From Nitriliruptoraceae bacterium (GTDB lineage Bacteria; Actinomycetota; Nitriliruptoria; Nitriliruptorales; Nitriliruptoraceae), in the NCBI GenBank assembly GCA_007120465.1, contig SKNO01000166.1, positions 1 through 35,262 on the forward strand: DNA of 35,262 bases, written 5' to 3'. Below the pieces are notes generated by a model that was not told where the DNA came from, searched no databases, and saw only the letters and a program-made list of their open reading frames with translations. The stretch's first letter is position 1; each line of letters starts with the position of its first letter. This document shows positions 5,627 through 17,065 of the stretch, in pieces. The translations under genes were made by a program, and so were the position numbers.

Positions 5627-5878
5627 CTACGGACGTTCGGCGCGGCGCCGCTGCAACGGCACGACCGGCGTGGACGCACCCGTCACCACCAGGTCGTCGA
5701 GCAGCCGACGCGTGGCTCCCGCCACCTCGTCGACGGCCCGGTCGAAGGCGGCCCGGTTCGCGGCCGACGGTTGGCGGTAGCCGCTGACCTTGCGGACGAA
5801 CTGCAGGGCCGCGTCGCGGACCTCGTCGTCGGTCGCGGGCGGCTCGGCGCCGCGGAGCTGCTGGATGTTCCGGCACAT
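5627..5878 (-). CDS. DUF2277 family protein
   Basis: This 83-residue protein begins [20 protein letters not shown] and continues through [19 protein letters not shown]. It matches the well-conserved DUF2277 pattern (MCRNI...PPAT..E...AALQ.VRK.SG...PS..N..AF). The invariant Cys2-Arg3-Asn4 is present. The C-terminus is shortened and Arg-rich. The family is frequent in actinobacteria and has no established function; the conserved N-terminal Cys suggests metal or cofactor contact, but this is inference. The gene is divergent from the BNR-repeat gene at 6075. Confidence 0.9.
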
Positions 5879-6074: not shown

Positions 6075-7190
6075 ATGAGCGGAGTACGGGTACTGGTCGG
6101 CACGCGCAAGGGCGCGTTCCTGTTGAGCGCGGACGGGCATCGGGAGGACTGGGACGTGCAGGGCCCGCTGTTCGGCGGGTGGGAGATCTACCACGTCAAC
6201 GGATCGCCGGCGGATCCCGACCGGCTGTACGCGTCGCAGTCCGACGGGTGGTTCGGCCAGGTGCTGCAGCGCTCGGACGACGGTGGCGCGACCTGGGAGA
6301 CGGTCGGCAACGAGTTCACCTACGTCGGTGACGCGGGGAGCCACCAGCACTACGACGGCAGCGCGGTGCCGTGGAAGTTCAACCGGGTGTGGCACCTCGC
6401 CCCTGCCGCCGACGACCCCGACACGGTGTACGCGGGGGTCGAGGACGCCGCGCTGTTCCGCAGCACCGACGGTGGCCAGTCGTGGCAGGAACTCGCCGGA
6501 CTCCGGGACCACGGCTCTGTGCCGGGCTGGATGCCCGGCGCCGGGGGCCTGTGCCTGCACACGATCCTCGCCCGCCCCGACGACCCCGCCCGCATGCTGG
6601 TCGCGATCTCGGCCGCCGGGGTGTTCGCCTCGGACGACGGCGGCGACTCCTGGGAGCCGGCGAACAAGGGCCTGCACTCGGGGTTCATGCCCGAACCCGA
6701 GGCGGAGGTCGGGCACTGCGTGCACAAGCTCGCGATGCATCCGTCGCAGCCGGACGTGGTGTTCATGCAGAAGCACTGGGACGTGATGCGCAGCGATGAC
6801 GGTGGCCGGTCCTGGCGCGAGATCAGCGGGAACCTGCCGACCGACTTCGGGTTCGCCATCGGGGTCCACGCCCACGAACCCGAGACCGTGTACGTCGTGC
6901 CCATCACCAGCGACGAGCAGCACTACCCGCCCGACGGGGCGCTGCGCGTCTACCGCAGCCGCACCGGCGGTGACGAGTGGGAGCCGCTCACCGACGGGCT
7001 GCCCCAGGAACACTGCTACGTCAACGTCCTCCGCGACGCCATGGCGATCGACGAGATGGATCCGTGCGGGGTGTACGTGGGGACGACGGGCGGGCAGGTG
7101 TACGTGTCGCCCGACGGCGGCGACCACTGGAGCCCGATCGTGCGCGACCTCCCGGCGGTGCTGTCGGTCGAGGTCCAGACGCTGCCATGA
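6075..7190 (+). CDS. BNR/Asp-box repeat (sialidase-like beta-propeller) protein
   Basis: The 371-residue protein begins [17 protein letters not shown] and has no evident signal peptide, so it is probably cytoplasmic. Six Asp-box-like repeats are readable: [40 protein letters not shown] and SPDGGDHW. They are spaced as expected for blades of a six-bladed propeller. Databases often label such proteins exo-alpha-sialidase, but the catalytic Arg triad and Tyr of sialidases cannot be recognised here, so enzymatic activity should not be assumed. The start is an ATG with an AGGAG-containing stretch at 6060-6065. The stop overlaps the ATG of the MoaD-like gene as ATGA, implying coupled production of the two proteins. 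Confidence 0.85.
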
Positions 7191-7522
7191 GCGCGGCACT
7201 CCACGGACCGGAGGACGGGGTCGCGGCGGTCCGCGTCGCCATGCCGCAGCAGTTGCGCACCCTCGCACGGATCAGCGGCGAGGTGGTCGTCGAGGTGGCC
7301 GCACCGGTGACGTTGCGGACCACCCTCGACGCTCTCGAGGCAGCCCACCCGACGTTGACGGGCACGATCCGGGACCGTCACACCGGACAGCGCCGCGCGA
7401 TGGTGCGCCTCTACGCCGATGGTGAGGACCTGTCGAACGTGCCGCCCGACACGCCGCTGCCGGAGCCGGTGGTCGCGGGACGCGAGCCGCTGCGGCTCGT
7501 CGGGGCGATCGCCGGGGGTTGA
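7187..7522 (+). CDS. MoaD/ThiS-like beta-grasp protein with C-terminal Gly-Gly
   Basis: This 111-residue protein has a MoaD/ThiS layout. A first strand is '[23 protein letters not shown]'. A helix follows ('[20 protein letters not shown]'). The later strands include '[23 protein letters not shown]' and end at ...RLVGAIAGG. In this superfamily a C-terminal GG is the site of adenylation and thiocarboxylation (sulfur carriers) or of isopeptide conjugation. The ATG overlaps the stop of the BNR-repeat gene. No E1-like MoeB/ThiF, MoaE or JAB protease gene lies nearby, so the partner enzyme must be encoded elsewhere. Its role as a sulfur carrier or modifier is inference. Confidence 0.8.
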
Positions 7523-9000: not shown

Positions 9001-9288
9001 TCACCTCCCCGGACCGGCAGGCGACAGCTCCGCGCCGCAGGCGGTGCAGGTCTCGTCGGTGGGTGCCCGCGGGGCGGAGCACGCCGGGCACAGCCGTGCG
9101 GCCATCGCCTCCCGGCGGCGGGCGATCAGCACCTCGAGGTCGTCCCCGTCCGCCACCTCATCGGACGGTGCGACGTCCCCATCGGGGCCGACGTCGGCGT
9201 CGTCCCGGGACGTCCGATCCACCAGCGGCCGCACGATCATCACGACGACCACGAGGGCGAGCGCGAAGGCGGCCAGCACGATCAGCAT
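9001..9288 (-). CDS. Membrane-anchored zinc-ribbon protein, CcmI-like
   Basis: This 95-residue protein has an N-terminal membrane helix (MLIVLAAFALALVVVVMIVR) followed by PLVDR, an acidic linker, a short helix (DLEVLIARRREAMAA) and a C-terminal zinc ribbon with CPAC and CTAC pairs. The helix-plus-linker arrangement resembles the N-terminus of CcmI, the apocytochrome chaperone subunit, but the large periplasmic TPR part is missing. The ATG overlaps the stop of ccmF (ATGA), and the next gene begins four bases after its stop. The function is not established; a structural or heme-handling role beside CcmF is inference. Confidence 0.72.
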   Translation of the reverse strand: MLIVLAAFALALVVVVMIVRPLVDRTSRDDADVGPDGDVAPSDEVADGDDLEVLIARRREAMAARLCPACSAPRAPTDETCTACGAELSPAGPGR

Positions 9289-11312
9289 CAGCGCACCTCC
9301 CCCTCGCCCGCCCCGACGACCACCCTGTCGTCCTCCGGAGGCGCGTCGTGCTCCGCCGTCCGGCGCGACGGAACGTCGACGGGACGCAGGGCGAACACGC
9401 CTCCGAGCAGGATGAGGGCACCGCCGAGCCACAGCCACAGCATCCCGGGGTGGAGCAGGACCTGGAACCCGGCGGTCCCCGCCTCGACGTCGACGTCCCC
9501 GAGGATCACGTACACGTCCCCGCGGACCAGCGAGCGCACCCCCACCTGGGTCCGCGGCTGGTCCTGGTTGACGCCGAGGTAGCGTTCGGTCGTGAGCGAG
9601 CCGAGCGACCGGCCCCCGGCGGCGGCCACATCCAGCGTCGCGGTGATCGCCATCCGCGTCGGACCCACCTCGGGTTCCAGCGCGGCGAAGGTCAGGTCGT
9701 AGGACCCGACGGTGACCTCCTCGTCGACGCTGAGACTGACCCGCTCGTCGCTGCGGTAGGTCACGTCGAGCGCGATCCCGACGATCAGCAGGACCACCCC
9801 GAGGTGGGCGACCGCGCCCCCGTACCGGCGGGGGGTGCGCGCGAACAGCCGCCCGACGGCGCCGAGGTGGTCGCGGAGGCGACGGTGCGGGTGCGCGTGC
9901 ACGCCGCGGTGGAACTCCCCCGCGATGGCCGCGAGCGCGAAGGCGGACAGCGACAGCACCACGATCGTCGCCGGGCTGCGGCCACCGTCGACCACCGCCG
10001 CGATCGCGCCGGCGAGCAGCCCGACCGCGACCGGCACGTCGAGCCGGCGCCGGACCCCCCTGGCGGTCGCCCGGCGCCACGCGACGGCGGGCCCCAGCCC
10101 CAGCAGCACCAGCAGTGCCACGGCGACGGGCAGCGTGACGCGGTCGAAGAAGGGGGCGCCGACGGTGGCCTCCCGGCCCTGCACCACCGAGGTCACCACC
10201 GGGAAGAGCGTGCCCCACAGGATCGCCAGGCCGTAGGCGACCAACAGGCCGCCTGCGAGCGCCAGCAGCATCTCGCGCGACCAGGGGGCCAGCGGCGCTC
10301 CCGGACCTCGCAGGCGCGGCAGCCGCCAGGTGATCAGCACCGTCGGGACGATCACCGCGGCACCGATCGCCACCAGCAGGTACATCGCCGCGGGCGACTC
10401 CGCGAAGGCGTGCACGGACGACGCCACCCCGGAGCGGACCAGGAAGGTCCCGAACAGCGTGAGCGCGAAGGTGGCCGTCACCAGCGCGAGGTTCGCGACC
10501 CGCAGCGATCCGCGCCGTTCCTGCACCGCCGCGGTGTGCAGGAAGGCGGTGGCGGTCAGCCACGGCAGCAGGCTGACGTTCTCCACCGGGTCCCAGGCCC
10601 AGTACCCACCCCACCCGAGCTCGGTGTAGGCCCACCGGGCGCCGAGCACGATCCCGACCCACAGCAGCGCCCACGACAGCAGCATCCAGACGCGGGCGAC
10701 CCGCAGCCACGGGCCGTCGAGGTTGCCGGTCACCAGCGCCGCGACCGCGAAGGCGAAGGGGACCGTGAACCCGACGTAGCCGAGGAAGGTCGCCGGCGGG
10801 TGGTACAGCATCCCCCAGTTGTGCAGCATCGGGTTCAGGCCGGCGCCCTCCTGGGGCACGAAGGGCAGGCGGGCGAAGGGGTTGCTCGTGAAGGCGGTCA
10901 GGGCGACGAACACCACGAGGACCAGCGCCAGCACCAGCGTCACGATCGGCATCAGGTCGCGGTGCCGGTCACGGAAGCACCACCCGACCAGGCTGCCGGC
11001 GCCCGCCAACAGCCACGCCCAGAGCAGCAGCGAGCCCGCCTGACCGGCCCAGAACGCCGCGACCGTGTACGCCGTCGGCAGGAAGCTGTCGGAGTACTCG
11101 GCGACGTAGCGGACGGAGAAGTCGCGGGTGAGGAACAGGACCACCAGCACCGCCGACGCGACGGTCAGTGACACGAACGACGCCCGCAGCCCCGCCTCGG
11201 CGCTGCGGACCAGCGCCGGACGCCGCCAGCGGTGGCCCACGAACGACGCACCCACCGACCACGTCGCGGCGGCCAGCGCCAGCAGGACGGCGAAGGTGCC
11301 GAGCTCCGGCAT
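9288..11312 (-). CDS. ccmF: Heme lyase CcmF/NrfE family
   Basis: CcmF is the polytopic membrane subunit that attaches heme to apocytochrome c on the outer face of the membrane. The roughly 674-residue protein contains the WWD-type heme-handling motif WGGYWAWDPVENVSLLPW at about residues 235-251, the flanking His segment (LHNWGMLYHPP), and at least a dozen hydrophobic helices. The large C-terminal extracytoplasmic domain runs to the last helix near 'MLWLWLGGALILLGGVFAL'. An ATG at 11310-11312 overlaps the ccmD stop as TGATG; a GTG three bases earlier is the alternative start. The neighbour is nrfA, whose active-site heme is CXXCK, so this protein could also act as NrfE. Confidence 0.93.
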   Translation of the reverse strand: MPELGTFAVLLALAAATWSVGASFVGHRWRRPALVRSAEAGLRASFVSLTVASAVLVVLFLTRDFSVRYVAEYSDSFLPTAYTVAAFWAGQAGSLLLWAWLLAGAGSLVGWCFRDRHRDLMPIVTLVLALVLVVFVALTAFTSNPFARLPFVPQEGAGLNPMLHNWGMLYHPPATFLGYVGFTVPFAFAVAALVTGNLDGPWLRVARVWMLLSWALLWVGIVLGARWAYTELGWGGYWAWDPVENVSLLPWLTATAFLHTAAVQERRGSLRVANLALVTATFALTLFGTFLVRSGVASSVHAFAESPAAMYLLVAIGAAVIVPTVLITWRLPRLRGPGAPLAPWSREMLLALAGGLLVAYGLAILWGTLFPVVTSVVQGREATVGAPFFDRVTLPVAVALLVLLGLGPAVAWRRATARGVRRRLDVPVAVGLLAGAIAAVVDGGRSPATIVVLSLSAFALAAIAGEFHRGVHAHPHRRLRDHLGAVGRLFARTPRRYGGAVAHLGVVLLIVGIALDVTYRSDERVSLSVDEEVTVGSYDLTFAALEPEVGPTRMAITATLDVAAAGGRSLGSLTTERYLGVNQDQPRTQVGVRSLVRGDVYVILGDVDVEAGTAGFQVLLHPGMLWLWLGGALILLGGVFALRPVDVPSRRTAEHDAPPEDDRVVVGAGEGEVR

Positions 11313-11428
11313 CACCGGGCCTCCTTGCGGCGCAGCCGCCGCCGTGCGACGAGCAGGACGGCGAGGTAGCTGCCGTACAGCAGCCCGGCACCGACGTAGG
11401 CGGAGATCACGTAGGTCCAGCCGCTCAT
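11312..11428 (-). CDS. ccmD: CcmD-like small membrane protein
   Basis: This 38-residue protein (MSGWTYVISAYVGAGLLYGS, then a short Arg-rich tail RRRLRRKEAR) has one membrane helix. Small size, the aromatic-Val-x-x-Ala-Tyr segment and the cytoplasmic basic tail match CcmD, which helps release heme-loaded CcmE from the CcmABC complex. Its ATG overlaps the ccmC stop by four bases and its stop overlaps the ccmF start. A longer upstream reading exists but runs into ccmC and adds an unlikely Gly/Arg-rich segment. Confidence 0.85.
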   Translation of the reverse strand: MSGWTYVISAYVGAGLLYGSYLAVLLVARRRLRRKEAR

Positions 11429-12159
11429 GAGGTCATCGCCTCCCGGGCCTCCAGGGCGTCCCGCCGGGCGGCGAGATCGACCCGCAGCCACAGCAACAGC
11501 AGCCACAGCAGCGTGAACGCGACGATCCCGACGAGCAGCACCGCGAGCATCTCACCCGGCAGCTGCGGTCCGTCGGGGTTGGCGACGACCGGTCCCGGGT
11601 GCAGCGACCGCCACAGGCGCACCGACACGTACACCAGCGGCACGTTGAGGAAGGCGACCACGCCGAGCACCGCGGCGTAGCGCGCCCGACGGTCCGGCTC
11701 GACCACGTAGCTGCGCAGGGCGAGGTAGGTGACGTACATCAGCCAGAGCACGAAGTAGCTGGTCAAGCGGGGTTCCCAGCTCCAGAACACCCCCCACATC
11801 GGGCGGGCCCACAGCATCCCCGTCAGGATCACGACGGTGGTGAAGACCACCCCGACCTCGGCCGACGAGGCGGCCACCCGGTCCCACCGACGCGACCGCG
11901 TCATCAGCACGCCGATGCTCGCCACGAACACCACCAGGAAGGCGAGCATCCCCACCCACGCCGACGGCACGTGGAGGTAGAAGATGCGCTGGACGGGACC
12001 CTGGAGCCGGTCCTGCGGCGCGTGGACGAGGGCGCCGTAGAGCAGCAGCGTCAGCGTGACGGCGGTCGTGACCGCCAGCCAGCGCAGCCCGGTGCGACGG
12101 GCGGTGCGGGGCGCCGCGTCCGGGTCCTTCCGCGGAGGAGCGGTCGGGGTGTGGGTCAT
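11425..12159 (-). CDS. ccmC: Heme exporter/transfer protein CcmC
   Basis: CcmC presents heme to CcmE at the membrane surface. The 244-residue protein has six hydrophobic helices. The WWD-like segment GVFWSWEPRLTS lies at about 123-134, where many CcmC proteins have a W-W-x-W-D-x-R-L-T form; here the Asp position reads Glu. The two axial-ligand His candidates are H63 (YLHVPSAW) and H187 (SLHPGP). It begins five bases after ccmB and overlaps ccmD. The N-terminal 20 residues are Pro/Arg-rich and cytoplasmic. Confidence 0.93.
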   Translation of the reverse strand: MTHTPTAPPRKDPDAAPRTARRTGLRWLAVTTAVTLTLLLYGALVHAPQDRLQGPVQRIFYLHVPSAWVGMLAFLVVFVASIGVLMTRSRRWDRVAASSAEVGVVFTTVVILTGMLWARPMWGVFWSWEPRLTSYFVLWLMYVTYLALRSYVVEPDRRARYAAVLGVVAFLNVPLVYVSVRLWRSLHPGPVVANPDGPQLPGEMLAVLLVGIVAFTLLWLLLLWLRVDLAARRDALEAREAMTS

Positions 12160-12164
12160 CGGGA

Positions 12165-12842
12165 TCACTCCTCGACGAGGTGGCGGTAGGTCGCCAGGCC
12201 GAGCAGCAGGAACAGGGCCGCACCCGCCACCAGCACCAACAGCCACGAGGTGGCCGCGACCGGCGTGCCTCCCGCGAGCGCGACCTCGGTCGCCTTCACG
12301 GCGGCGATCATCACCGGGATCGCGAAGGGGACAACCAGCACCGGCAGGATCACCTCGCGGGTGCGGGTGTGCACCGCCATCGTGGAGAACAGCGTCGCCA
12401 GCGCGACGAGCGCGAGCGTGGCGAGAGCGACGGTCAGGGCGAGCAGCCCGATGCCCCGCCCCGGCTCGAGCTGCAGCAGGACGACCGCGATCGGCAGGAT
12501 CAGCACCTGCACGGCGACGACGAAGGCGAGGTTCGACAACACCTTGCCGAGGAAGATGCTCTCCCGTGGGACCGGGCTGGTCACCAGCCCGTCGATGCAG
12601 GCGTCCTCGTACTCCATGGCGACGGCGCGCCCGACCCCGAGCAGGATCGAGAACAGGAACGCCATCCACAGCACCCCCGCCGCGACGGCATCACGGTGGA
12701 CGCCTGTGGTCGGCAGGGAGAAGCTCGTCACCACGACGATCAGCAGGGCGAACAGGCCGATCGCCGTGAGCACGTCGCGGGTCCGCAGCTCGATGCGCAG
12801 ATCCTTCGCGGCGATGCGGGTGGCGGCCCGCCAGGTGCTCAT
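12165..12842 (-). CDS. ccmB: Heme exporter permease CcmB
   Basis: The 225-residue integral membrane protein begins MSTWRAATRIAAKDLRIELR, the usual CcmB opening with a cytoplasmic helix before six hydrophobic segments. 'ACIDGLVTSPVPRESIFLGK' matches the conserved loop of the family. It pairs with the ATPase CcmA, whose gene overlaps it by four bases (ATGA). Together they form the ABC-type part of CcmABCD, which releases holo-CcmE. Confidence 0.93.
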   Translation of the reverse strand: MSTWRAATRIAAKDLRIELRTRDVLTAIGLFALLIVVVTSFSLPTTGVHRDAVAAGVLWMAFLFSILLGVGRAVAMEYEDACIDGLVTSPVPRESIFLGKVLSNLAFVVAVQVLILPIAVVLLQLEPGRGIGLLALTVALATLALVALATLFSTMAVHTRTREVILPVLVVPFAIPVMIAAVKATEVALAGGTPVAATSWLLVLVAGAALFLLLGLATYRHLVEE

Positions 12843-13606
12843 CGCGCCACCTCCTGCCGGTCGTCGGCGGACACCCGGGCGGGCAGGCGCCGGGGGGGCC
12901 GACCGCGCTGCGCGTCGCGCACCAGCGCCGCCACCACCTCGATGTCCTCCGCCGGTTCGTCGGCCACCAGGTGGCCCTCGGCCAGCACCACGACCCGCTC
13001 GGCGAGTACCGCCTGGCCCGCCTCGTGCGCCGTCAGCACGATCGTGTGGCCCCGCCGGTGCAGCGCGGCGAGGTGGGCGGTGAGGCGCTCCGCGGACGCG
13101 AGGTCGAGCCCCGTGTAGGGCTCATCGAGCAGGACGATCGCCGGGTCGTGGAGCAGTGCCCGGGCGAGCGCTGCCCGCTGCCGGTTGCCCCGGGAGAGCA
13201 GCCGTGCCGGTCGGTCGAGCGCCTGCGTGACCTCGAACCTCGCCGCCACCTCCGTCACCACCTCCGTGGGCAGACCGTGCAGCGAGGCGTGGAAGGCGAG
13301 GTTCTCCCGCACGGTCAGGTCCCCGTAGAGCAGGCTGTCGTGGCCGACGTACCCGAGCAGGGCACGCAGCCCGGGTCCGGCCCGTCGCCGGTCGATCCCC
13401 GCGATGCGGACCATGCCCGTCGTCGGCGCCGCCAGGCCGGCGATCACCCGCAGGAGGGTGGTCTTCCCCGCCCCGTTGCCCCCCATCACCGCCACGGACG
13501 TGCCCGCCGGGATCGTCAGATCGATGCCCGCCAGGGCCCGGACCGGACCGAAGCTGCGCGCCACCCCGACGAGCTCGACGTCGGGGCCGCGGCCGGGGCG
13601 GCTCAC
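12839..13606 (-). CDS. ccmA: Heme export ATP-binding protein CcmA
   Basis: The 255-residue ABC ATPase has a Walker A (GGNGAGKTT) at about 42-50. The signature region is SRGNRQRAALARAL, with LSRGN in place of the usual LSGGQ, as is common in CcmA. Walker B is AIVLLDEPYTGLD, and a switch His follows (TIVLTAHE). The start is a GTG at 13604-13606 that overlaps the ccmE stop (GTGA). A much longer upstream extension in the same frame runs antiparallel to nothing useful and is ccmE in another frame. Confidence 0.92.
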   Translation of the reverse strand: MSRPGRGPDVELVGVARSFGPVRALAGIDLTIPAGTSVAVMGGNGAGKTTLLRVIAGLAAPTTGMVRIAGIDRRRAGPGLRALLGYVGHDSLLYGDLTVRENLAFHASLHGLPTEVVTEVAARFEVTQALDRPARLLSRGNRQRAALARALLHDPAIVLLDEPYTGLDLASAERLTAHLAALHRRGHTIVLTAHEAGQAVLAERVVVLAEGHLVADEPAEDIEVVAALVRDAQRGRPPRRLPARVSADDRQEVAR

Positions 13607-14088
13607 GGTTCCTCCCACTCCGCCTCGAAGCGCGAGGCGCACCGGGTGAGGACGGTGTCCGCCGCGAACGACCCGTCGGCGGCGAACCGGCCCTCGGCCA
13701 CCGCCTCCGCACCGTCGGCGAGGGAGTCGGGGGGCCAGCCGCCGAAGCGCACGGGGATCGTCGTGGTCCCGTCGGTCACCGCGAAGCGCAGCTCGCCGGT
13801 CTCCGCGTCCCGGTGGATGCTGCCGTCGGCGACGTGGCCGGCCAGCCGGAACACCTGGTCGGGCGCGGCGTCGACCGCCTCGGTCGGCGTGAGGTAGTAC
13901 ACGACCGACCCACGGAACGCGTCGACGGCCACCCAGCCGATCGCGGCCAGCACGACCAGGCCGAGCAGGATCAGGGGGGCGCGGGGCGTCCGGCGTTCGA
14001 GGGGGAGCCGACCGGTCCGTCCACGGTCCGGTGCGCCGGCCCCACCGTCGGGGCCCAGGACGGCGTCCCGCTGGCGGTCCGCGTTCAT
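13603..14088 (-). CDS. ccmE: Heme chaperone CcmE, Cys-type variant
   Basis: CcmE binds heme covalently and carries it from CcmABCD to CcmF. The 161-residue protein has a cytoplasmic Arg/Pro-rich N-terminus and one membrane anchor at about 38-57. The OB-fold follows: SVVYYLTPTEA, then FRLAGHVADGSI, FAVTDGTTTIPV and AVAEGRF. Where the usual form reads HDExY, this one reads C150-A-S-R-F154. The heme-attaching His is therefore replaced by Cys, as in the CXXXY class, and the Tyr is replaced by Phe. An ATG at 14086-14088 with GGAG six bases upstream is preferred over a GTG twelve bases earlier. It is the first gene of the operon. Confidence 0.9.
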   Translation of the reverse strand: MNADRQRDAVLGPDGGAGAPDRGRTGRLPLERRTPRAPLILLGLVVLAAIGWVAVDAFRGSVVYYLTPTEAVDAAPDQVFRLAGHVADGSIHRDAETGELRFAVTDGTTTIPVRFGGWPPDSLADGAEAVAEGRFAADGSFAADTVLTRCASRFEAEWEEP

Positions 14089-14278
14089 CGCCGACTCCAC
14101 GGGTCCGCATGGTCCGGGTTCGTCCCCATGGTGCGCCCGAGGGGGTGCGCGGGTTAGGGCCAGGGGACGTGCCGTGGACGGGTACTTCGGCCGTGTCGGG
14201 CTCCGTGCCCGGCGGTGACCGTGGTGGTACGAGGCCCGTCCTCGCCTGCCGTCCCCATCCTGCTACAGGTCGCCGGCC

Positions 14279-14857
14279 GTGGATCCCACCCCCTCCCCGA
14301 CGCTCCCGGACACACCGGAGGACCGTTCACGGACCGTCGGGGTGATCGTGGCTGCGGCGGTCATCGTCGTCACCGTCCTGCTGGGGGCGATCCTCGTCGC
14401 CGCCCAACGGCCGGGCGATGGGCTCCCGCCGGACCCGATCGGGGCACCGGCGCCCGGCTTCGAGCTGCCGACCCTCGATGGCGGCGCCCTCGCGCTCGAG
14501 GAGCTGCGGGGGCAGCCGGTCGTGCTGACCTTCTGGGCATCGTGGTGCACCACCTGCAAGGACGACGTGCCGACGCTGCAGCGCGTGGTCGCGGACTGGG
14601 GCCCACGGGGGGTCCAGGTGGTGGGGGTCGTGATCGAGGACAGCCTGCGCGCCGCGACCCTGGCCGCCGAGGAGGCCCGTCTGCGCTACCCCAGCGTGTA
14701 CGACGGCGCGGACGAGGTCCGGACCGCCTACGGGGTCCGTGGCACCCCGGAGACGTTCCTGCTGGACGGCGACGGACGCGTCGCGGCGCGATGGATCGGG
14801 CCGCTGCCGGCCCATGAGCTCGAGCTCAAGCTGGCGGCGCTGGATCCGGTGCCCTGA
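14279..14857 (+). CDS. TlpA/ResA/CcmG-type membrane-anchored thioredoxin
   Basis: The 192-residue protein starts at GTG and has a membrane anchor at about 19-42. A thioredoxin fold of the AhpC-TSA/Redoxin type follows, opening 'IGAPAPGFELPTLDGGALALEELRGQPVVLTFWASWC'. The active site is WCTTCK (Cys90, Cys93), and the cis-Pro segment is RGTPETFLL. Proteins of this class keep apocytochrome CXXCH cysteines reduced before heme attachment. It is divergent from ccmE and upstream of nrfHA, and no ccmH is found, so it is the likely thiol-handling factor of this module. Confidence 0.9.
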   Translation: MDPTPSPTLPDTPEDRSRTVGVIVAAAVIVVTVLLGAILVAAQRPGDGLPPDPIGAPAPGFELPTLDGGALALEELRGQPVVLTFWASWCTTCKDDVPTLQRVVADWGPRGVQVVGVVIEDSLRAATLAAEEARLRYPSVYDGADEVRTAYGVRGTPETFLLDGDGRVAARWIGPLPAHELELKLAALDPVP

Positions 14858-15080
14858 CCCGGTCGCGGCTAGCGCCGAAGGAGGGATCCGCGAGGGGCGA
14901 AGGACCCTGGCGGGCCGGGGACCGCGCCGTAGCTTCGGAGGTGTGGATGGTTGACGAGCCGTTCCTCCCTGTGCCCGGACCGGTGCGGCGCACCGGAGCC
15001 GGCGACGACGGGAGGCACGGCCGCCCCACCGATCGTGGTGACGTCCGCCGCAGACGCCTCCACGTAAGGAGTGACCGACG

Positions 15081-15593
15081 ATGCGTGGTCGGCTCCGGCT
15101 GCCTCGGTCGCCCCGGGGGCGCCTGACGCTGTTCACGTTGGGGGGTGTCGTCCTCGGCATCGTCCTGACCGCGACCGCCATCACCGTGATCGAGTCGACG
15201 GACTCCCCGGAGTTCTGCTCCGGGTGCCACATCATGGACTCCGCGTTCGGTTCCTTCTCGACCTCGAACCACGCCACGCTGGACTGCAACGACTGCCACG
15301 CCCCGTCCGAGAGCTTCTTCGTCAAGATGACCTTCAAGGCCCGGGCGGGCATGGGGCACATGTACATGAACACCATCGGGCGCGGCGACATCCCCGACGT
15401 GCTCCACGCCACCTCGGAGTCCTCCGAGGTGGTCGTCAGCAACTGCATCCGGTGCCACGCACCGAGCCTGGCGGAGGTGAGCCACGACGCCAAGGAACGG
15501 TGTGCCGACTGTCACCGGTCGGTCCCCCACGGCCGCGGCATGTTCCGACCCGATGACTGGCACGAACCCCTGAACATCGATGCGGCGCGGTGA
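15081..15593 (+). CDS. nrfH: NrfH-type tetraheme cytochrome c (NapC/NirT family)
   Basis: NrfH takes electrons from menaquinol and passes them to NrfA. The 170-residue protein has an N-terminal membrane anchor (about 15-37) and four CXXCH motifs: CSGCH (46-50), CNDCH (69-73), CIRCH (122-126) and CADCH (141-145). The Met after the first motif (CHIMD) matches the unusual distal-side arrangement of NrfH heme 1. A TAAGGAG ribosome-binding site lies about ten bases upstream of the ATG. The next gene, nrfA, begins 32 bases after the stop. Confidence 0.93.
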   Translation: MRGRLRLPRSPRGRLTLFTLGGVVLGIVLTATAITVIESTDSPEFCSGCHIMDSAFGSFSTSNHATLDCNDCHAPSESFFVKMTFKARAGMGHMYMNTIGRGDIPDVLHATSESSEVVVSNCIRCHAPSLAEVSHDAKERCADCHRSVPHGRGMFRPDDWHEPLNIDAAR

Positions 15594-15625
15594 CGCCGTC
15601 CATGCCCTGCAGGAGGTGAGCGAGC

Positions 15626-17065
15626 GTGATCCGGAGCCGTGGCAGCGTGATCACGACCGGCCTGCTCGTCGTCGTCGGCGTGCTGTTCGTCGCCGCCGCC
15701 TGCACGTCGGAGCCGATCGCGGTGGACGTACCTCGGGACACGGGGCTCCCCGCGGACACCTTCCTGACGAGCGCGTTCGCCGAGGAGTTCCCGATCCACT
15801 TCGAGAGCTACCTCGGCAACATGGAGCGCGGTGGGGAGTACGCCTCCAAGCTGACCGTCGACGTCGAACCCAACCTGCCGATGCTGTGGTCGAACCTGGC
15901 CTTCTCGGTGTCGTACAACATGCCGCGGGGACACACCTTCGCGCTCGCGGACGTGCTGGCGACCCCGCGGATCGGGGACGCGTCGATCGGGTCGTGCATG
16001 ACCTGCAAGTCGACGGCCGTCCCGGCGCTGCTGGCCGAGTTCGGTGACGACTACTGGTCCGCGAGCTTCCTCGGGGAGATCGCTCCACGCACCCGCGAGC
16101 TGATCGAGGGCGGGGAGATGGACGAGCTCGGTGAGTACGGCCACGCCGGCGTGGGGTGCGCCGACTGCCACGACCCGCAGACGATGGAGCTGCGGATCAC
16201 CCGCCCGTCGCTGACCAACGCGCTCGAGCGCCAGGGCGTCGACCTCCTCGAGGCCAGCCGGAACGACATGCGCTCGTACGTGTGTGCGCAGTGCCACGTC
16301 GAGTACTACTTCTACCCAGAGACGCGCAAGGTGACCTTCCCGTGGGACCGAGGGCTGCGTGCCGAGGACATGTGGGAGTACAAGGAGGAGGTCGCCCGGG
16401 AGCGTGGGTTCGAGGCGGACTGGATCCACGGCATCTCCGGTGCGCCGATGCTCAAGGCGCAGCACCCGGAGTACGAGCTGTGGAGCTACGGCGCGCACGG
16501 CACCGCGGGCGTGTCGTGCGCCGACTGCCACATGCCCTACCAACGGATCGACGGCCGCAAGGTCACCACCCACGTGTGGGGGTCGCCGCTGGAGACCGTC
16601 GAGCAGTCGTGCCGCACCTGCCACGCCGACCAGTCCGCGACCGACCTGACCGAGCGGGTCCGCGGCATCCAGGAGCGCCACCTGAGCGCGATGCACGAGG
16701 TGCAGGACCTGTCGGTCGATGCGCACTACTACATCAACCGGATGATCACCGCCGGCGCCGACCCGGCCGTGATCGACGAGGCTCGTGAGCTCGTCCGCAA
16801 GGGCCAGTGGTTCTGGGACATCATCGCGGCGGAGAACTCCGACGGGTTCCACAACCCGCACGGCGCGATGGACGCGATGCGGATGTCCTCGGACGCGTCC
16901 AACGCCGCGATCCGGATCGCCACGGCGGAGCTCGTCCGCCTGGGCGTCGACCTCGACGAGCTGCGCGACCAGATCGACCGCACCAAGCAGGAGGTCTACG
17001 ACGAGCCCGACCCGCTGCGCAAGCACGAGCTCGTCACCAACGACTTCTTCCCCTTCCAGGGCTGA
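15626..17065 (+). CDS. nrfA: Ammonia-forming cytochrome c nitrite reductase NrfA
   Basis: NrfA reduces nitrite to ammonium with six electrons outside the cytoplasmic membrane. The 479-residue protein has a signal/anchor segment ending near VAAAC. It carries five heme sites: CMTCK (124-128, the Lys-ligated catalytic heme), CADCH (178-182), CAQCH (220-224), CADCH (298-302) and CRTCH (329-333). Catalytic candidates are R101 (MPRGHTF), Y227/Y228 (CHVEYYF) and H280 in KAQHPE. The Lys-x-Gln-His arrangement is that of the calcium-containing enzymes. The GTG start has AGGAGGT at 15611-15617. An uncleaved or lipid-modified N-terminus is possible but the lipobox is weak. Confidence 0.95.
   Translation: MIRSRGSVITTGLLVVVGVLFVAAACTSEPIAVDVPRDTGLPADTFLTSAFAEEFPIHFESYLGNMERGGEYASKLTVDVEPNLPMLWSNLAFSVSYNMPRGHTFALADVLATPRIGDASIGSCMTCKSTAVPALLAEFGDDYWSASFLGEIAPRTRELIEGGEMDELGEYGHAGVGCADCHDPQTMELRITRPSLTNALERQGVDLLEASRNDMRSYVCAQCHVEYYFYPETRKVTFPWDRGLRAEDMWEYKEEVARERGFEADWIHGISGAPMLKAQHPEYELWSYGAHGTAGVSCADCHMPYQRIDGRKVTTHVWGSPLETVEQSCRTCHADQSATDLTERVRGIQERHLSAMHEVQDLSVDAHYYINRMITAGADPAVIDEARELVRKGQWFWDIIAAENSDGFHNPHGAMDAMRMSSDASNAAIRIATAELVRLGVDLDELRDQIDRTKQEVYDEPDPLRKHELVTNDFFPFQG

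Follow-up and report, generated by a model that had tools for sequence, protein, structure and literature searches.

A gene for an Asp-box beta-propeller and a gene for a small ubiquitin-like protein (Ubl) ending in Gly-Gly almost certainly form one functional unit, because they occur together, sometimes fused, across at least 14 bacterial phyla. As to what the unit does, we favour, at an even chance, a reading by analogy in which the Ubl would act as a sulfur carrier and the propeller as its dedicated acceptor enzyme, with charging by an E1-rhodanese, docking of the Ubl tail and transfer of sulfur. The pair was found in a 35,262-nucleotide contig of a Nitriliruptoraceae bacterium (Actinomycetota), the whole stretch of DNA analysed and referred to here as the window, with the following features:

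Positions 6075 to 7190, forward strand: propeller gene, encoding a 371 aa seven-bladed Asp-box (BNR) beta-propeller, the proposed sulfur-acceptor enzyme.
Positions 7187 to 7522, forward strand: Ubl gene, encoding a 111 aa ubiquitin-like beta-grasp protein that ends VGAIAGG, the proposed sulfur carrier.
Positions 7187 to 7190, forward strand: ATGA overlap, formed by the start codon of the Ubl (ATG, 7187-7189) and the stop codon of the propeller (TGA, 7188-7190).

An earlier sequence-only reading of this DNA had reported both the ATGA overlap and an exact Gly-Gly end, and both are present: the Ubl closes with LVGAIAGG, directly followed by TGA. Its observation that no molybdopterin or thiamine gene is near also holds among the subset of window ORFs scanned with Pfam, where the genes around the pair have unrelated housekeeping or respiratory functions. 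A DUF2277 protein is encoded divergently from the pair (5627-5878, reverse strand), and the cytochrome c maturation genes CcmF and CcmB lie at positions 9288-17065, close to a gene for a nitrite reductase-like cytochrome c552.

Across 396 genomes of the phylum, all 25 near Ubl homologues with a complete Ubl adjoin a propeller gene and end in VGA[IM]AGG, and one more, cut by a contig end, also adjoins a propeller. A scan of named genomes yielded at least 570 propeller relatives, of which the best 80 were kept, so that this sample is biased to close relatives (mean propeller identity 77%); by the tree, these best 80 loci nonetheless span 14 phyla. Locus genes are simple ORF calls, many of the genomes are draft bins, and Pseudomonadota were sampled through plasmid records and chromids only. 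Usable downstream sequence is missing in three of the 80 loci (L075 and L109 at contig ends, L104 with a cut Ubl); L081 is the only remaining one lacking a Ubl, all others having it directly downstream, an arrangement we call type A. The exact 4-base overlap occurs in 72 of the 76 complete type-A pairs from these best 80 loci. Gly-Gly, kept in 76/76, is the best-conserved part of the protein; the Ubl stops exactly there in 70 pairs and continues for 1 to 14 further residues in six. Phyla are intermingled on the tree of these loci, which may reflect transfer, and draft bins can be contaminated. Judged by these comparisons, the gene linkage is ancient.

Other gene arrangements accompany this one. 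For the 75 propellers of the phylum that could be assessed, the Ubl is encoded downstream in 34, upstream in 16, fused to the propeller in 12 and absent in 13. Gene order is reversed in two deep branches; upstream Ubls, ending ALSGG or ALTGG, are found in P. aeruginosa, Roseateles (Mitsuaria), Burkholderia and Cupriavidus. The fusions, in 12 actinobacterial genomes, encode in a single frame a Ubl, [SIT]GG, a linker of 2 to 24 residues and the propeller, with Gly-Gly at the junction in 12/12. They come from four families and occupy several tree positions, and the well-supported branches require three or more changes. Short-range synteny that keeps unrelated genes side by side could alone explain adjacency within one genus or family, but such hitchhiking is exceedingly improbable over 14 phyla with an exact 4-base overlap, two deep reversals and fusions in several parts of the tree, and with propeller and Ubl distance matrices correlated at r 0.50, where permutations reach at most 0.31. 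The coupling of the two genes suggested by the sequence-only reading is thus borne out far beyond close relatives.

Gly-Gly itself is conserved, and its exact terminality is not universal. In the clade of the fusions, Ubls that are not fused often run one to four residues past Gly-Gly, most Ubls that precede a propeller extend past it, and the extension where the proteins are not fused ranges overall from 1 to 29 residues. The earlier expectation of an invariant Gly-Gly end therefore stands in part: the motif is present in every pair seen except one, but it is not always last, and by that reading's own wording 6/76 type-A Ubls, most upstream Ubls and all fusions are exceptions to terminality. 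Its view of Gly-Gly as a functional end is supported. The sole pair seen without the motif is in Nonomuraea gerenzanensis (L042:5081-5395), where the Ubl directly after the propeller ends LPALA.

By sequence the window Ubl matches known families only weakly, with 13.8 bits against Pfam ThiS (cut-off 22.5) and 20.4 bits against its best family match, SAMP1 NF041918 (cut-off 60); the P. aeruginosa counterpart scores 27.4 bits against ThiS, over the cut-off. An AlphaFold2 model (mean pLDDT 85) shows a Ubl of beta-grasp fold whose tail is disordered, and its top PDB folds are SAMP1 (3po0) and CysO (3dwg), with MoaD-type structures also among the top, so that the earlier MoaD/ThiS-like assignment, taken as a Ubl of the MoaD/ThiS/SAMP kind, finds better support in fold than in sequence. 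We call the Ubl sulfur-carrier-like because its fold, its Gly-Gly and the E1 in its genome agree with that label while its score falls below the Pfam cut-off. No match to the Ubl was found in viral contigs, nor to the propeller in phage records.

Known bacterial sulfur carriers serve few acceptors, namely molybdopterin synthase, thiazole synthase, CysM and a few natural-product enzymes. In known systems the carrier gene adjoins the acceptor gene, as in moaD-moaE and cysO-cysM (PMC1779556). The pair resembles MoaD-MoaE and the fused MoaX in having a Ubl gene beside that of an enzyme, Ubl-GG-enzyme fusions, Gly-Gly at the junction and a MoeZ-type E1 in the genome. It differs in that the partner is a seven-bladed Asp-box propeller rather than MoaE, in lying outside molybdopterin genes (neither an adjacent or fused MoaE nor another such gene was found at the pair among the window genes scanned) and in a Ubl below the ThiS cut-off. 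With the CysO-CysM-Mec system it shares the fold match to 3dwg, and CysO-type proteins are the Ubl's distant relatives in the homologue search, but neither CysM nor a JAB gene lies beside the pair, and the CysO operon of the genome is a separate one. SAMP1, a small archaeal modifier, is the best structural match and a weak family match; the Ubl, by contrast, is bacterial, under the NCBIfam cut-off and tied to one partner gene. Bacterial Ubl-conjugation operons have linked E1, E2-like or JAB genes, of which none was found within 5 kb of the pair among the recurring gene families of the 80 loci. Iyer et al. 2006 make no mention of sialidase, BNR or propeller, and a search conducted mostly outside subscription journals found no paper describing the pair.

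The E1-like or JAB partner that the sequence-only reading proposed to look for is not near the pair in the window; both are encoded elsewhere in the genome, where the only full-length E1 found is a ThiF + rhodanese protein. Other pair-carrying genomes searched encode an E1 in 49/51 cases and a JAB protease in 26/26. This makes Ubl activation and trimming possible and is weak evidence, because these genomes commonly encode both enzymes for other purposes. Several actinobacterial genomes have one in-frame TGA in a MoeZ/MoeB-type E1 gene (L168; E1 matches G081, G032, G070, G046, G092); in L168 it may encode selenocysteine, because it sits at the expected active-site cysteine (ELAPT*GEAGVLG). The window genome also encodes a MoaD-MoaE fusion with Gly-Gly at its junction (PVAGG-AADRP, L162:928-1644) and a CysO ending GGAVS, three residues past Gly-Gly, beside a JAB protease and cysteine synthase (CysM) (L161:2829-3251). 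With this CysO operon and MoaD-MoaE fusion already in the genome, we rejected the window Ubl as a CysO or MoaD paralogue of the standard pathways. The fusion and the extended CysO suggest that Ubls in this genome are trimmed by proteolysis.

A rival reading is a role as protein modifier, in which the Ubl would be joined to lysine residues, either on other proteins or on the propeller itself (K12 being a candidate), as with SAMP1 or Urm1, and the propeller would serve as target or reader, assist a ligase or help to remove conjugates. Both E1 and JAB are encoded in the genome, the best fold match is a known modifier whose family NF041918 is also the best, sub-cut-off, sequence match, and the propeller's fold relatives sortilin and YCF48 are in the PDB as peptide complexes. 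Yet the pair has no linked E1, E2-like or JAB gene among the families that recur within 5 kb in the 80 loci, where the recurring neighbours are of other kinds; one dedicated partner over 14 phyla better fits a carrier and its enzyme than a general modifier, and K12 lies in a turn beside other invariant residues, a more active-site-like setting. A modifier role seems unlikely.

The propeller has six Asp-boxes, as sialidases do, and no signal peptide recognisable by eye. Its usual database name is exo-alpha-sialidase, but a sialidase or glycosidase reading was rejected on the missing FRIP-type arginine motif (no [FYW]RIP occurs) and by a match to the sialidase domain model BNR_3 of 15 bits, under the cut-off of 27; on sequence grounds, the name "sialidase" should not be used for it. 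Its closest solved relative, PDB 3b7f (Ralstonia eutropha Reut_B4987, "glycosyl hydrolase, BNR repeat"), belongs to the same propeller family (phmmer E 3e-70), with most of the invariant residues described below aligned. The propeller model (mean pLDDT 79) matches it at Z 44.2 and 36% identity, the next fold rows lying at Z 27. The function of 3b7f is entered as "Not known" (PMC2716378). Sortilin and YCF48, Asp-box peptide-binding propellers solved with bound peptides, share the fold at low identity to the propeller. To our knowledge neither has a Ubl partner, and we know of no sulfur-transfer member of the propeller fold.

Across 147 propellers from all gene arrangements, T10, W106, W152, H162, H217, Q232, H234 and R320 are kept in every protein and K12 in 146, giving a set of nine polar or aromatic residues if K12, with its one loss, is counted; there is no invariant cysteine. 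Because of the predicted strands and the standard propeller topology, most of the set would be placed where inner strands begin or in B-C turns, on one face around the mouth of the axial tunnel, a placement that depends on strand prediction and includes a region of low model confidence. Of the roles that the sequence-only reading had proposed for the propeller (target, scaffold or downstream enzyme of the Ubl), all are supported as open options.

The propellers that stand alone bear on a further explanation. The 13 Ubl-less propellers of the phylum comprise eight from Streptomyces, where no Ubl adjoins in 8/8 genomes or on one Streptomyces plasmid, and five (5/5) from one other actinobacterial family. 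Three Rhodobacterales plasmids (L036, L037, L038) likewise carry a propeller gene with no adjacent Ubl, and that of Rhodobacter sp. CZR27 adjoins egtB and egtD, ergothioneine genes of a sulfur-metabolite pathway. Each of the eight Streptomyces genomes encodes two CysO-like Ubls, at least one of which adjoins CysM in 7/8, and a dedicated orphan partner was not identified among them. The propeller site may be independent of a linked Ubl, because propellers with no adjoining Ubl keep the same invariant residues, or the Ubl may be encoded elsewhere. Such proteins favour a structural partnership, in which the Ubl would regulate a propeller enzyme or be its non-catalytic subunit, with Gly-Gly serving docking rather than activation. 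Also consistent with it are the retention of Gly-Gly even before a linker and propeller or before 1-29 further residues, the closely overlapping Nonomuraea pair that lacks it, and the ability of Asp-box propellers to bind peptide ends (sortilin and YCF48). Against it, Gly-Gly is what E1 enzymes read and is the best-kept feature of the Ubl, at which 70/76 type-A proteins end exactly. We consider a purely structural partnership unlikely.

In the sulfur-carrier reading, the cell's MoeZ-type E1-rhodanese would activate the C-terminal glycine of the Ubl and convert it to a thiocarboxylate, and the flexible VGAxAGG tail would then enter the mouth of the propeller's tunnel. There T10, K12, W106, W152, H162, H217, Q232, H234 and R320 could hand the sulfur on to a small molecule, or keep the tail in place meanwhile; we infer both the sulfur transfer itself and the propeller's part as acceptor. 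Where the Ubl is fused or extended, a JAB-type protease would be expected to cut after Gly-Gly first. M. tuberculosis MoaX, a MoaD-MoaE fusion, is cleaved between Gly82 and Ser83 and requires both this cleavage and both glycines for activity (PMC4326299), and a Deinococcus JAMM protease cleaves that organism's MoaD-MoaE fusion (PMC8832034). By analogy with MoaX, residues past Gly-Gly may mark precursors that need trimming. Possible, if on the doubtful side, is the bolder proposal that the pair is a separate kind of minimal bacterial Ubl system: the propeller, instead of an E2/E3 or a known sulfur acceptor, would take the activated tail in its tunnel and use it to produce a sulfur-containing protective metabolite or a specific target modification.

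The gene neighbourhood hints at such a protective role. Within 5 kb, 10 of the 80 loci encode an ECF sigma factor with a DUF6596/TPR extension (ECF42 type), 13 a YCII protein and 11 a DoxX-like protein; AHSA1/SRPBCC, VOC and HxlR proteins are further neighbours. At the actinobacterial background of 0.24 DUF6596 genes per Mb, about 0.18 would be expected in the 753 kb concerned against the 10 observed, and 10 are unlikely even at the rate of the richest genome (P about 3e-8). The P. aeruginosa pair has the same ECF42/YCII-type set beside it. Work in Pseudomonas putida has connected ECF42 factors with oxidative-stress and antibiotic phenotypes (PMC8999054, PMC6180224). In some lineages the unit may be part of an ECF42/YCII stress or detoxification gene set.

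A pair kept over at least 14 phyla, present in P. aeruginosa and many soil bacteria, with MoaX-like fusions and a solved propeller relative, points to a part of sulfur or Ubl biology that has been missed. Its explanation would assign a function to many proteins that at present bear the label "exo-alpha-sialidase".
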